Part shown: piece after piece, positions 39,926 through 61,618 of the stretch
Layout: the number at the start of each line of letters is the position of its first letter
How positions within the stretch are numbered: position 1 is the stretch's first letter
From: Spirochaetota bacterium
Lineage (GTDB): Bacteria > Spirochaetota > Brachyspiria > Brachyspirales > JACRPF01
Reading direction: 5' to 3'
Length of the DNA stretch: 64,000 bases
NCBI GenBank assembly: GCA_016214035.1
Contig: JACRPF010000022.1
Location: 186,001-250,000 of the forward strand
Position numbers and translations under genes: made by a program
The notes under the pieces: generated by a model
What the model saw: the letters and a program-made list of their open reading frames with translations, nothing else
Database searches by the model: none
Told to the model about the DNA's origin: nothing

Positions 39926-39954
39926 ATTGTATCACAGCCGGGGTATTATGGCAA
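39926..39954 (-). promoter_or_regulatory. Promoter of cimA
   Basis: The - strand reads TTGCCA, 17 bp, TACAAT with the same extended -10 as valS. Confidence 0.85.
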
Positions 39955-39993: not shown

Positions 39994-40021
39994 TTGCCAA
40001 ACATGACAGACGGCATATAAT
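39994..40021 (+). promoter_or_regulatory. Promoter of the AraC gene, likely giving a leaderless mRNA
   Basis: TTGCCA (39994-39999), 16 bp, perfect TATAAT (40016-40021). A start 7-8 bp downstream coincides with the ATG at 40029. Confidence 0.75.
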
Positions 40022-40028
40022 GTCATCC

Positions 40029-40865
40029 ATGGCACGGAAATACATAAACCTCTACGATACACGCATCGTCAAACCGGAACACTCATCCGTTCCGCGCCTC
40101 GACCCCGAGCTTGTCTGGTGGATTGTTTCCGATGTTCAATCCACACGCAGTTCTGCGAAGCCGGATAAGCACGCATTCAATGAACTTATCTATGTGCGTG
40201 AGGGCGACGGATGTATGGAGATCAACGGGAAGTCATATCCGGCGCACCGCGGCGATCTGTTCTCCATTAATCCGGAAGATGCACACCGCAGCTACACGGA
40301 GAACGGCTCTGCACTCGTCGTCCATTATTTTGCGTTCAAACTTCCGCGGTGGAAAGAGATTATCTGCGCGCTCACGGGAAATGAACGCCTGCCCGTAAAA
40401 ACAGATGCCCCCGGAGGCGACATCATGTCGCTGTACGGGAAGATACAAAGCGAGATCGTATCGCGGAAGACCGCAGCCGATCGCGTCATCGGCAATTATA
40501 TCGCGCTCATCGTCCTCACGCTCGCGCGAAAAAAGAGCGATGCGCCGCAGCCCCCGTCAGCCGATTTCACTTCGTTTGACGCGAAGCTTTCGGTCAGCGA
40601 TATGGCGAAGCAGGCATATCTTTCGCGGACCTATTTCAGTAAGCTCTATAAAAAAGAGACGGGTGAAAGCCCCGCACGGCACATCGTCCGGAAAAAGATA
40701 GCGCTCGCGAAGCATCTGCTCGTGTCCACGGAAAAAAAGATACGCGATGTGGCGAACGATGTTGGTTTCGAGGATGAGTATTATTTCTCGAAAGTATTCA
40801 AGCGGCTTGAAAAAATGACACCGTCCGAATACCGGGCCGCGGGCGCTGTTAAGAAAAGGCCCTGA
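40029..40865 (+). CDS. AraC family transcriptional regulator (cupin sensor)
   Basis: Counted from ATG 40029 the protein has 278 residues. Other in-frame starts (40020, 39927) overlap the promoter and lack ribosome sites. The N-terminal cupin-like sensor (about 30-130) has 'HAFNELIYVREGDGCMEING' and 'PAHRGDLFSINPEDAH'. The C-terminal double helix-turn-helix (about 185-270) has 'VSDMAKQAYLSRTYFSKLYK' and 'IRDVANDVGFEDEYYFSKVF'. Such proteins usually activate sugar genes. The next promoter carries a 21-bp-spaced direct repeat typical of AraC targets, so it probably controls the two Gfo/Idh genes downstream. Confidence 0.85.
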   Translation: MARKYINLYDTRIVKPEHSSVPRLDPELVWWIVSDVQSTRSSAKPDKHAFNELIYVREGDGCMEINGKSYPAHRGDLFSINPEDAHRSYTENGSALVVHYFAFKLPRWKEIICALTGNERLPVKTDAPGGDIMSLYGKIQSEIVSRKTAADRVIGNYIALIVLTLARKKSDAPQPPSADFTSFDAKLSVSDMAKQAYLSRTYFSKLYKKETGESPARHIVRKKIALAKHLLVSTEKKIRDVANDVGFEDEYYFSKVFKRLEKMTPSEYRAAGAVKKRP

Positions 40866-40902
40866 TCGGGCGCTGTTGGAAAACGTCCGGCCGGTGCCGT
40901 GT

Positions 40903-40936
40903 CACAAAATTCCATCCCGTCGGCACAAATTTCCAT
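40903..40936 (+). promoter_or_regulatory. Direct repeat with 21-bp period, candidate AraC operator
   Basis: CACAAAATTCCAT (40903-40915) and CACAAATTTCCAT (40924-40936) match at 12 of 13 positions with starts exactly 21 bp apart, placing them on the same DNA face. The second copy touches the -35 box. Confidence 0.7.
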
Positions 40937-40964
40937 TTACCCGAAAGACGCGATGTGTTATCTT
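40936..40964 (+). promoter_or_regulatory. Weak, activator-dependent-looking promoter of the Gfo/Idh genes
   Basis: TTTACC (40936-40941), 17 bp, TATCTT (40959-40964). The poor -35 box overlaps the AraC-type repeat by one base. Confidence 0.6.
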
Positions 40965-40994
40965 TACGATGTAACCTGAATCAAGGAGCATCGT

Positions 40995-42059
40995 ATGAGC
41001 AGTAAACGTTCAGTGGCTGTTGTCGGCGGCGGTGTCGGCGGCAAGCTATCCATCGACGCAGTCAACGCATCGGCGAAATTCGAACTTGCGGCGATAACCG
41101 ATATGCGCCCCGAGGTGTGCGAATCATGGCGGGCAAAACTTCCCGGTGTGCGCGTCTTCACCGACCATAATGAGATGTTCCGTGAATGCCCGACCGATAT
41201 CGTCTGCGTGAGCACATTCCCTCCGTCACATGAGCCGATAACCATGGACGCGCTGAACGCACTTCCGCTCAAAGGTATACTTGTAGAAAAGCCGCTCGGA
41301 CACACCGCGGCATCCGGCAGAGCCATACTGAACGCAATAAAGAAACGCGGCATACCGATGGCGGTGCCGCACAACATGCTCGTGCGCAAGGGCACCGTGG
41401 AAGTGCTGAAGCGTGTCCGCGCGGGCGAGATAGGCGAACTGCGATCGGTCACGGTGCAGTCTGACAAGTGGGATATCATGAACGCCGGCATTCACTGGTT
41501 CAACTATTTCGTGGCGCTCACAGACCGCGAGCCGATAGATCATGTCATGTGTCTCTGTGAAGCAGGCACGCGCACCTACCGCGACGGCATGCAGGTGGAG
41601 ACCACCGCGGTTGCATCCGCCGTGACGAAAAGCGGCGTTCAGTGTATACTTAATACCGGTGACTCAATTCATACCGACCCGGAGATAACCGGCGGCGCGC
41701 CGTTCCGTATCGTGGGTTCGCGCGGACAGATTGCCGTCGGAAGCTGGTCGAATTCCTATTTCATCCAGAACCGCGAACACCCGGAAGGTACTGTCATCGA
41801 CGCGGGGAGTTATTCCGAATCGGGACATCAGCGGCATCTGGAGACAATGGCGGATTTGATCGGCGGTACTCCGGATTATGCGATACCGGAAAGCTCGCTC
41901 ATGGCGCTCGAACTCGTTGAAGCATCGTATCTGTCGAGTAAGCATCACTGCAAGGTGACATTCCCGTTCGCTGATTTTGTTCCGCCGACGCCGGTAGTCT
42001 GGGAGCCGGGAACACCATACAGCGGTACGGGCGGCGGACGCGACGGGCGCAAGCTATAA
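40995..42059 (+). CDS. Gfo/Idh/MocA family oxidoreductase
   Basis: This 354-residue NAD(P)-dependent sugar/inositol dehydrogenase-like protein has the N-terminal Rossmann motif 'VAVVGGGVGGKLS' and the family motif 'GILVEKPLGHT' near 95 with its catalytic Lys. 'MNAGIHWFNYFVALTD' near 160 carries the His used for the sugar hydroxyl. The C-terminal alpha/beta domain is complete. AAGGAG lies before the ATG. It is followed after 13 bp by a second member of the family. Regulation by the adjacent AraC protein is inferred from the upstream repeat. Substrate unknown. Confidence 0.85.
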   Translation: MSSKRSVAVVGGGVGGKLSIDAVNASAKFELAAITDMRPEVCESWRAKLPGVRVFTDHNEMFRECPTDIVCVSTFPPSHEPITMDALNALPLKGILVEKPLGHTAASGRAILNAIKKRGIPMAVPHNMLVRKGTVEVLKRVRAGEIGELRSVTVQSDKWDIMNAGIHWFNYFVALTDREPIDHVMCLCEAGTRTYRDGMQVETTAVASAVTKSGVQCILNTGDSIHTDPEITGGAPFRIVGSRGQIAVGSWSNSYFIQNREHPEGTVIDAGSYSESGHQRHLETMADLIGGTPDYAIPESSLMALELVEASYLSSKHHCKVTFPFADFVPPTPVVWEPGTPYSGTGGGRDGRKL

Positions 42060-42072
42060 TCAGGAGCATCGA

Positions 42073-43146
42073 ATGAATACAATCAACTTCGGTATCATCG
42101 GCGGCGGATGGCGCACCGAGTTCTACATGCGTATCGCAGAGGAGCTGCCGTCGCGCTTCATTGTATCGGGAGTCGTTGTCCGCGACGCGGCAAAAGGTGC
42201 CGCATTCGAAAAGAGATGGAATGTCCGCACATTCCGTACCGCCGGAGAACTTGTGAAATCGGCAAAGCCGGCGTTTGTCGTCCTGTCGGTCCCGTGGAAA
42301 GCGTCACCCAATCTTATCCTCGAGCTCGCAGCACTCGATATTCCTGTACTAGCGGAGACGCCTCCCGCGCCCGACATCCCGGCGATCGATCAGCTCATGA
42401 CGGATATACCGAAACACGCGCGCGTGCAGGTTGCAGAGCAGTATCCGTTTCAGCCGCATCTGGCCGCGGCTCTTACCGTGGCGCAAAGCGGGAAATTAGG
42501 AATCGTGTCGCAAGTGCAGGCGTCGCTCGCGCACGGTTATCACGGCATGGTGATGCTGCGGAAACTTCTCGGCGTGCACGCGGAAGCCGCATCAATACGC
42601 GCGTTCAATTTCACGTCGCCCATCGTGAACGGACCCGGCAGGAACGGCCCGCCCGAGGTCGAGGAGATTAAGGAATCCGCGCAGACCGTGGCGCATATAT
42701 CGTTCGGAAAGAAGCTCGGCGTGTTCGACTTTTCCGGAGAACAGTATTTTTCATGGATACGTTCACCGAGGCTGCTCGTCCGGGGCGATCGCGGCGAGAT
42801 AAACAACGACACGGTACGATATTTGAAAGATTTTCGTACGCCGGTGCGTTCGGTGTTTTTCCGCGAGAATGCCGGGGAGAACGGAAACCTTGAAGGACAT
42901 TATCTGAAAGGCATCATGTTCGGTGACGAGTGGATATACAGAAATCCGTTCATACCGGCGCGGCTTACCGACGACGAGATAGCCGTGGCTGCCTGTCTTG
43001 AAAAAATGAACGCGTATGTGTCCGGCGGTGATGCATTCTATGGACTTGCCGAGGCTTCATACGACCACTATCTCGGTATCATGATGAACAGGGCGGCGAA
43101 TGACGGTACGGCGGTTGACGTTCCGGTGCCGTCGTGGATGCGCTGA
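42073..43146 (+). CDS. Gfo/Idh/MocA family protein lacking the EKP lysine
   Basis: This 357-residue protein has the Rossmann motif 'FGIIGGGWRTEFYM' and the C-terminal domain of the family. At the place of the usual Glu-Lys-Pro it reads 'PVLAETPPAPD', so the catalytic Lys is replaced by Thr. It may therefore bind nucleotide and sugar without the normal hydride chemistry, or use another residue. It is co-transcribed with the normal member upstream. The two genes share the same ribosome-site context (AGGAGCATCG). A paired role in one sugar pathway is inferred. Confidence 0.75.
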   Translation: MNTINFGIIGGGWRTEFYMRIAEELPSRFIVSGVVVRDAAKGAAFEKRWNVRTFRTAGELVKSAKPAFVVLSVPWKASPNLILELAALDIPVLAETPPAPDIPAIDQLMTDIPKHARVQVAEQYPFQPHLAAALTVAQSGKLGIVSQVQASLAHGYHGMVMLRKLLGVHAEAASIRAFNFTSPIVNGPGRNGPPEVEEIKESAQTVAHISFGKKLGVFDFSGEQYFSWIRSPRLLVRGDRGEINNDTVRYLKDFRTPVRSVFFRENAGENGNLEGHYLKGIMFGDEWIYRNPFIPARLTDDEIAVAACLEKMNAYVSGGDAFYGLAEASYDHYLGIMMNRAANDGTAVDVPVPSWMR

Positions 43147-51815: not shown

Positions 51816-52723
51816 TATTTCACCTCTCGTGCCGTATCGATGAACGTCACAATCTCTTTCCCGAGGAGTGCAGACTCATCGTCTGAAACATGCCTGAGCG
51901 GGAAACGTACCGGTCCACAGTCGATGCCGCCCGCCAGTCTCATGATCGCCTTGCCCGCGCGAAGTCCGCCGAACCGTATCATCACCGCAATCATGTTAAC
52001 GGCTTTTGTCTGAGCAGCCCGCGCACTTTCAATGTCACCCGCGGCGAATGCGCTCATGATGCGACGATACAGCGGCGCGGCGAAATTATAGGTGCTCCCG
52101 ATGGCGCCCTTCGCGCCCACGGCAAGCGACGAGAGCAGTATTTCATCGCGCCCGAACAGTATATCATATTTGCCGTTCTGAAACGAGAGGCATTGCGCAT
52201 AGTCCATGATGTTTTCATGCGTGAATTTCACGCCGGCCAGATTCGGAATCCTGCCGTCAGCGGTGCGGAGAAAGTCCAGCATCGGAAATGTCACGCCGGT
52301 AAGCGATGGAATGTGATAATAATAGACGGGGGTTTTCGGGCAGGCGGCCGCAACCGCGGCGCAGAATGACACGAGTTCCTCAATGCCGGACGGTCTGAAG
52401 AAATACGGGGGCATGAGACCAACAGCATGGGCGCCTATCGCTTCCGCATGTTTCGCAAACGCAATACATTCCGGCAGCGCGGTGTGCCCGGTGTTGATGA
52501 TTATCCTGAATGAATCCGATCCGAAACGCATCCAGGTTTCCGCTGTTTTCAGACGTTCCCCGCTTGAAAGCGACTGTCCCTCGCCGGTGGTGCCGTTGAC
52601 GAAAACGCCGGCAATACCGTCGGCGATGAGCTTTTCTGCATAGCTTGGTATGACGTCGAAGGCGATGCTCCCGTCGTCGTGCATCGGTGTGAACGGCGCG
52701 GCGATAAGTCCGTTGATATTCAT
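51815..52723 (-). CDS. N-acetylneuraminate lyase/DapA family aldolase
   Basis: This 302-residue class I aldolase has the family's 'VNGTTGEGQSLS' (44-48 binds the pyruvyl carboxylate), Tyr136 in 'YYYHIPSLTG' and Schiff-base Lys166 in 'LAGVKFTHEN'. The YxIPxLxG and TTGE forms favour N-acetylneuraminate lyase over dihydrodipicolinate synthase. The coupled sialidase-like gene supports this: together they would release sialic acid and split it to N-acetylmannosamine and pyruvate. GGAGC precedes the ATG. A 22-bp dyad sits over the promoter. No nanE, nanK or transporter is in view. Confidence 0.8.
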   Translation of the reverse strand: MNINGLIAAPFTPMHDDGSIAFDVIPSYAEKLIADGIAGVFVNGTTGEGQSLSSGERLKTAETWMRFGSDSFRIIINTGHTALPECIAFAKHAEAIGAHAVGLMPPYFFRPSGIEELVSFCAAVAAACPKTPVYYYHIPSLTGVTFPMLDFLRTADGRIPNLAGVKFTHENIMDYAQCLSFQNGKYDILFGRDEILLSSLAVGAKGAIGSTYNFAAPLYRRIMSAFAAGDIESARAAQTKAVNMIAVMIRFGGLRAGKAIMRLAGGIDCGPVRFPLRHVSDDESALLGKEIVTFIDTAREVK

Positions 52724-60818: not shown

Positions 60819-61618
60819 GATATCCCGCCGATGTGATAGCGGAAAATGCCGGTAGCTTTTGCAATGAACGGCAACAGCCGCATCCATCCGAAGGCACGCA
60901 GCCGCGGTTCGGGTTTGTCGAAGTAATACCATCGATCGATCAGCCGAAATCCCCACGGTTCAATCGCTTCGGGACCTTTGGCGTCCCAACGCGCGCGCGC
61001 GCCGGAGCGTTTGAGTACGGAGCTCATGCGGTTATGATGCCGGGAGATGAACGGCGATGCCGCGTCGAATACAAGCTCGCTTCCGGGGAAACGCGCCGCC
61101 ATCTCCGTGAGGAGCGGCTTGACATCGCCGGTGCTGAAATAGGGAAACACCCCTTCGGCAAGAAACAGCACGGGACGATTATGGCGTGCCGCTTCATCAA
61201 GCCAGGAAACGTCCAGCATGGATATCCCGATTGTTTCAGCCCGATCGGTATCGGGAACAACGGAACGCCTGAGTTCGATTACTTCAGGCAGGTCGATGCC
61301 GAGCCACGACATCCGTCCGTTGTCAAGCCGATGGAATCTTGTGTCTAATCCGCACCCGATATCCACCACCAGGCCGTCGGGATTTGTGTCAAGAAAAGTG
61401 CGCGTGAATGTATCGAATTGCCGGGCGCGCATCACCGTGATGAACGCATCCGTTGCGCGCATACCCAGCAGGAATTCAGGATTTCCGCCAAGCGCATGGT
61501 AGATCTCGACGGCGCGCGGGTCGCGGAGGATGGCATCGGGACGTATCGACTCGACGGCACGGCATGCCAGCGGGACGAGCAGCGTGCGGGCGACTCCGTG
61601 AAGATCGGAAACGGTCAT
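60815..61618 (-). CDS. SAM-dependent methyltransferase, PPM1/LCMT type
   Basis: This 267-residue protein has the leucine-carboxyl-methyltransferase/polyketide O-methyltransferase family pattern: 'ARQFDTFTRTFLDTNPDGLV', then the SAM site 'VVDIGCGLDTRFHRLDNG', 'SWLGIDLPEVIELRR' and 'PVLFLAEGVFPYFS'. Members methylate carboxyl or hydroxyl groups of small molecules. It begins the - strand unit leading to AraC, PHP and XylR. The ribosome site is weak (GAGAC). A function in signalling or secondary metabolism cannot be separated from sequence. Confidence 0.82.
   Translation of the reverse strand: MTVSDLHGVARTLLVPLACRAVESIRPDAILRDPRAVEIYHALGGNPEFLLGMRATDAFITVMRARQFDTFTRTFLDTNPDGLVVDIGCGLDTRFHRLDNGRMSWLGIDLPEVIELRRSVVPDTDRAETIGISMLDVSWLDEAARHNRPVLFLAEGVFPYFSTGDVKPLLTEMAARFPGSELVFDAASPFISRHHNRMSSVLKRSGARARWDAKGPEAIEPWGFRLIDRWYYFDKPEPRLRAFGWMRLLPFIAKATGIFRYHIGGIS

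Follow-up and report, generated by a model that had tools for sequence, protein, structure and literature searches.

We propose that positions 40900-40937 of the window (the whole 64,000-nucleotide stretch that was analyzed) form an operator of class II type for the product of the neighboring AraC-family gene, and that this operator serves a sugar-oxidation operon of two Gfo/Idh genes. We put the probability of this reading at roughly 0.88. It rests on sequence, protein domains, the geometry of the site, a genome-wide statistical association, and an association between recognition helices and boxes, from which we infer binding, a ligand, and activation. In the proposed mechanism, two AraC-family subunits, switched by a small sugar-like molecule bound in their cupin domains, would occupy tandem 17-bp half-sites that lie on the same face of the DNA at a spacing of 21 bp, or two turns. 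Within a half-site, the first helix-turn-helix (HTH1) would read the upstream part and the second (HTH2, with helix DEYYFSK) would read TCCAT. The proximal subunit, lying against the -35 box, would help sigma70 RNA polymerase to start the two-gene operon (Table 1).

The initial annotation had also read this spot as an AraC-type operator. The domains of the protein, the enrichment and register of 21-bp repeats across the genome, the helix-box association, and the likeness to E. coli AraC and araI1 all support that reading. By itself, the site would be a classic textbook switch in a little-known lineage; many promoters of the genome are laid out in the same way.

Table 1. Features at the proposed operator and its neighboring genes (window coordinates).
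Feature	Position	Strand	Details
AraC-family regulator gene	40020..40865	+	Cupin/AraC_binding domain at the N-terminus, double HTH at the C-terminus
Second recognition helix (helix 6), D252-R262, DEYYFSKVFKR	40773..40805	+	Predicted to read TCCAT (box B); alignment with E. coli AraC (2k9s)
Distal 17-bp half-site TGTCACAAAATTCCATC	40900..40916	+	Holds the 13-mer copy 40903-40915; box B at 40911-40915
Proximal 17-bp half-site CGGCACAAATTTCCATT	40921..40937	+	Holds the copy 40924-40936; box B at 40932-40936; abuts the -35
-35-like hexamer TTTACC	40936..40941	+	4/6 to TTGACA; touches the proximal half-site
-10-like hexamer TATCTT	40959..40964	+	17-bp spacer; register anchor in the aggregate analyses
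Ribosome-binding site AAGGAG	40983..40988	+	Seen in the sequence
Gfo/Idh/MocA-type oxidoreductase 1	40995..42059	+	Predicted target; PF01408 1.7e-15, PF22725 5.1e-7
Gfo/Idh/MocA-type oxidoreductase 2	42073..43146	+	Same operon, 13 bp downstream; PF01408 2.2e-8

The site, its promoter, and the adjacent regulator

Two 13-bp copies had been described here as matching at 12 of 13 positions with starts 21 bp apart, and both direct reading and a repeat search confirmed this (CACAAAATTCCAT at 40903-40915 and CACAAATTTCCAT at 40924-40936). When the 129-bp gap was shuffled with dinucleotides preserved, a 12/13 repeat at 21 bp arose in 1 of 20,000 shuffles, and such a repeat at any spacing of 13-60 in 33 of 20,000. 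Judging from the sequence, a pair of 17-bp half-sites with TCCAT as box B describes the unit better than the 13-mers do. We set the register of the half-sites from the aggregate promoter profile (see below) and from comparison with araI1 (TAGCATTTTTATCCATA); by eye, the two are identical at 13 of 17 positions. The site thus has two features of a class II operator: its half-sites stand in tandem with a spacing of about 21 bp, and the proximal one adjoins or overlaps the -35 box (40921-40937 and 40936-40941).

The second copy had also been reported to touch a poor -35 box (TTTACC-N17-TATCTT). The contact and the hexamers hold up, but "poor" is not distinctive: this box matches TTGACA at 4/6, and the mean is 3.28/6 for repeat-bearing promoters and 3.23/6 for other promoters of the same genome. 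Since the two classes do not differ, we rejected a weak -35 as a mark of activator dependence. The AraC gene does end close to the first copy, as described, but with 37 bases between them; the 38 bp given before is the difference in coordinates.

The paired site, allowing up to three mismatches, occurs once in the 5.2-Mb genome. We had considered a wider regulon for the window's AraC protein, and we rejected it because the pair is single and because the number of lone 13-mers with one mismatch (10) is close to that for a reversed-pattern control (5). Within the window, three matches to the 13-mer at two mismatches are at the level of chance. A single near copy, CACAAGATTCCAT, lies on the minus strand at 61331-61343, close to the AraC genes at 58-60 kb.

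The regulator (with its start taken at the ATG at 40020; a longer frame opens at 39927) has both the double HTH of the AraC/XylS family and an N-terminal cupin of the sugar-regulator type. HTH_AraC (1e-21) and HTH_18 (8.4e-20) score far above their Pfam cut-offs, and the sensor domain matches Cupin_2 (1.4e-7, 31.6 bits, cut-off 27.2) and AraC_binding (6.2e-7, 29.7 bits, cut-off 21.1). Its nearest NCBIfam model is E. coli AraC itself (PRK10572; 2.1e-21), and at 76.1 bits it falls short of the 208 bits required of an equivalog. By this cut-off, the protein is a relative of AraC and not the arabinose regulator.

The closest known parallel is the araBAD promoter of E. coli MG1655, where AraC at araI1-araI2 likewise has tandem 17-bp half-sites 21 bp apart beside the -35 box. 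The araI1 half-site carries a TCCATA box (PMC4514859), so TCCAT is common to araI1 and to both copies in the window, while araI2 has ACCTGA instead. Helix 6 is nearly the same in the two proteins (DQLYFSRVFKK in E. coli AraC and DEYYFSKVFKR here). When araI1 and the distal half-site are aligned on TCCAT, they agree at T1, C4, and A5 of the 17-mer as well, and the distance from the start of the proximal box B to the -10 is 26 bp for araI2 (before TACTGT) and 27 bp in the window, as counted by eye. This likeness in box, helix, and spacing suggests that the window site works like araI. The two systems differ in their targets (a Gfo/Idh pair instead of araBAD), in the placement of the regulator gene (upstream in tandem instead of divergent), and in HTH1 and its box. 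Also, we recognized no distant site like araO2.

Other members of the family use similar arrangements. XylS at the Pm promoter of the Pseudomonas TOL plasmid binds tandem repeats of box A and box B beside RNA polymerase, which are read by its two recognition helices (PMC5481539); the pattern is TGCA-N6-GGNTA-N6-TGCA-N6-GGNTA (PMC4514859). The tandem layout is the same as in the window, while the boxes, the class of ligand, and the target genes differ. In Pseudomonas fluorescens, the AraC/XylS-type sugar regulator MtlR has two similar tandem 15-bp blocks upstream of the -35 box of PmtlE (PMC4514859). The tandem blocks are alike, but the MtlR boxes are AGTGC and AGTAT-AGGAT, and MtlR is induced by polyols.

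We also considered that the site might be a genuine operator of the adjacent AraC protein, but one at which the protein chiefly represses or has a dual role, keeping the -35 box and RNA polymerase blocked until a ligand binds. The proximal half-site does touch the -35 box, whose strength is average for the genome, so that the promoter might fire unaided. But tandem half-sites beside the -35 box are the arrangement of AraC at araI and of XylS at Pm, both of which are activators; and we found no second, distant operator for looping, as the pair occurs once in the genome. We consider such a mainly repressive or dual action to be improbable.

Tandem 21-bp repeats beside AraC genes

Our broader proposal, to which we give only slightly better than even odds, is that this family of bacteria has expanded its AraC-type regulators to at least 150 per genome, that many of these are wired to neighboring genes by private tandem operators with 21-bp spacing in a fixed register, and that helix 6 sets box B by a readable code, with [YFL][YFH]FS[RK] specifying TCCAT, which is also valid for E. 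coli AraC. Both the window's genome (G000; 5.2 Mb in 22 contigs, in which the window is C19:186001-250000) and a genome from a sister genus of the same family (G001) encode at least 150 AraC-type HTH domains, from 225 and 257 first-look candidates, respectively. This is apparently a large expansion for 5-Mb genomes. Our literature search turned up no publication that describes either an expansion of AraC proteins or a recognition code for them in this lineage.

The repeat counts in G000 cover about 860 kb surrounding AraC genes, in which we predicted genes with a home-made caller. In promoter-bearing gaps beside AraC genes, there were 20 pairs of 9-mers (at least 8/9 identical) at 21 bp, compared to a mean of 2 per spacing, and 21 was the only spacing that stood out. 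Gaps away from AraC genes had a slight excess at 21 bp (6 versus 1.9), and convergent gaps had none in the same count. Similarly, dinucleotide shuffles predict a repeat of at least 9/11 at 21 bp in 1.75 of the 153 AraC-adjacent promoters, whereas 15 have one; other promoters had 12 of 178 (2.7 expected), and the upstream regions of the AraC genes themselves had 9 of 107 (1.42 expected). Many of these last are divergent gaps that the first count already includes, seen from the opposite direction. Most AraC-adjacent promoters have no clear repeat.

The repeats also keep a register. When each promoter is anchored on its best -10 box, those next to AraC genes match themselves at 21 bp over positions -42 to -23 relative to the start of the -10. 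This self-match reaches 0.39 over its best nine columns (with a baseline of about 0.26) and stops where the -35 box begins. The window's proximal 13-mer, at -35 to -23, falls inside this span, and its site is among the best of the anchored set (14/19). The signal is present for targets that are divergent from the AraC gene (z = 5.1) and for targets downstream, as in the window (z = 4.7); the AraC genes' own promoters show no register signal at 21 bp (z of about 0.1-0.3). The self-match is 0.355, compared to 0.256 between promoters, which implies that each promoter has a site with a sequence of its own. With spacing and register both fixed, it is often possible to locate an AraC operator using nothing but the sequence.

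The scan also turned up other repeats. TACA pairs are enriched at exactly 21 bp in the AraC stretches of G000 (34, compared to a mean of 12.5 over spacings), which might indicate a second class of box. Near 52723 of the window, on the minus strand (C19:238723), a 21-bp direct repeat (TTTTACAA / TTTTTACAA) ends just before a -35 box, with TATACT as the -10; it is not adjacent to any AraC gene among the matches listed. And a 21-bp tandem array, TCCATAGGGAATGTACCCCGT, lies at two contig ends (C15:96768-96835 and C16:4-92), which may adjoin.

The second recognition helix and the TCCAT box

Across 39 repeat-bearing promoters, those whose adjacent AraC proteins are more alike in helix 6 tend to have sites that are more alike in their downstream half (r = 0.125, p = 0.013), a correlation that is only modest because it was one of twelve tests. 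In the same 39 promoters, helix 6 was not correlated with similarity in the upstream (A) half, and the rest of the HTH domain was not correlated with similarity of the site.

TCCAT recurs as a box. TCCATN16TCCAT occurs 49 times in G000 and the reversed pattern 3 times, although some of the 49 fall within coding sequence or belong to a 21-bp tandem array. TCCAT pairs that are followed by a -10 box number 17 at 21 bp and 3 at 24 bp. For AraC genes whose helix fits [YFL][YFH]FS[RK], a class that we defined after examples had been seen, 9 of 32 have a TCCAT pair beside them, compared to 1 of 126 with other helices (p = 1.8e-6). A narrower class of helix, with a proline, gives 7 of 9 versus 3 of 149; the window's DEYYFSK belongs to the wider class and lies outside the narrower one. 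A third feature of a class II operator, agreement between the box and the recognition helix of its own regulator, is thus seen here by association only: in G000, in G001 (below), and at araI1.

In G001, TCCAT pairs followed by a -10 box are again more common at 21 bp (17) than at 24 bp (0), and AT-rich relatives from the same order lack this contrast. The helix class is again associated with the box (4 of 23 versus 1 of 100, p = 0.004, in a sample that was partly drawn for holding a TCCAT pair). Some TCCAT promoters of G001 look orthologous to those of G000 (for instance, L270 and L200). The general 21-bp signal is weaker in G001 (z = 2.8), and strict 21-bp repeats are not enriched there, so the strong general signal rests on one genome.

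These associations bear on two further explanations. One is that the site belongs to a different regulator that uses direct repeats, with the AraC gene as an unrelated neighbor. LytTR and OmpR/PhoB families do use direct repeats of similar spacing (about 21-22 bp), but the 21-bp signal is concentrated in promoters that adjoin AraC genes, and the sequence of the box follows the recognition helix of the adjacent AraC protein, so we consider this very improbable. The other, a chance repeat with no function, deserves equally little weight: short repeats are common and this is one site without a usable orthologue, but few shuffles reproduced it, and the agreement of register, box, and helix lay outside the original observation.

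A genome with at least 150 AraC paralogues, many with operators that can be found in this way, offers many protein-operator pairs in one cell, which is enough to begin learning how the two AraC recognition helices choose DNA. The type of helix 6 versus TCCAT is a concrete prediction. We also noticed three 21-bp TCCAT pairs in G000 (L206 at C3:95817, L213 at C8:13244, and L220 at C12:147456) that have TGCAGAWWTCTCCAT in common; we found no AraC domain closer than 1.5 kb to any of them. They look like a regulon in which one unlinked AraC protein serves several promoters.

The Gfo/Idh gene pair

We found no orthologous locus with both the AraC gene and the Gfo/Idh genes for footprinting, whether in relatives, in the phylum, in a GTDB scan, or around Gfo pairs from other phyla. 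A search of 392 other genomes of the phylum with the first oxidoreductase gave no match at 1e-20, and neither the relatives nor the GTDB scan had an orthologue of it; a search of plasmids returned only distant Gfo/Idh proteins. The window's AraC protein had no match in the DNA that we fetched around three Gfo pairs from other phyla.

The oxidoreductases themselves are conserved more widely. The second has 17 relatives at 46-56% identity, and the adjacent pair is kept, at about 48-56% identity, at three loci on contigs from Phycisphaerae, Anaerolineae, and Chloroflexota. By eye, the ORFs that flank the Chloroflexota pair read as a sugar-binding protein and ABC sugar permeases, which makes a sugar or a cyclitol a reasonable guess at the substrate. 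Conservation of the pair across phyla can be seen at L304, L309, and L315, and L315 lies among apparent ABC sugar-transport genes.
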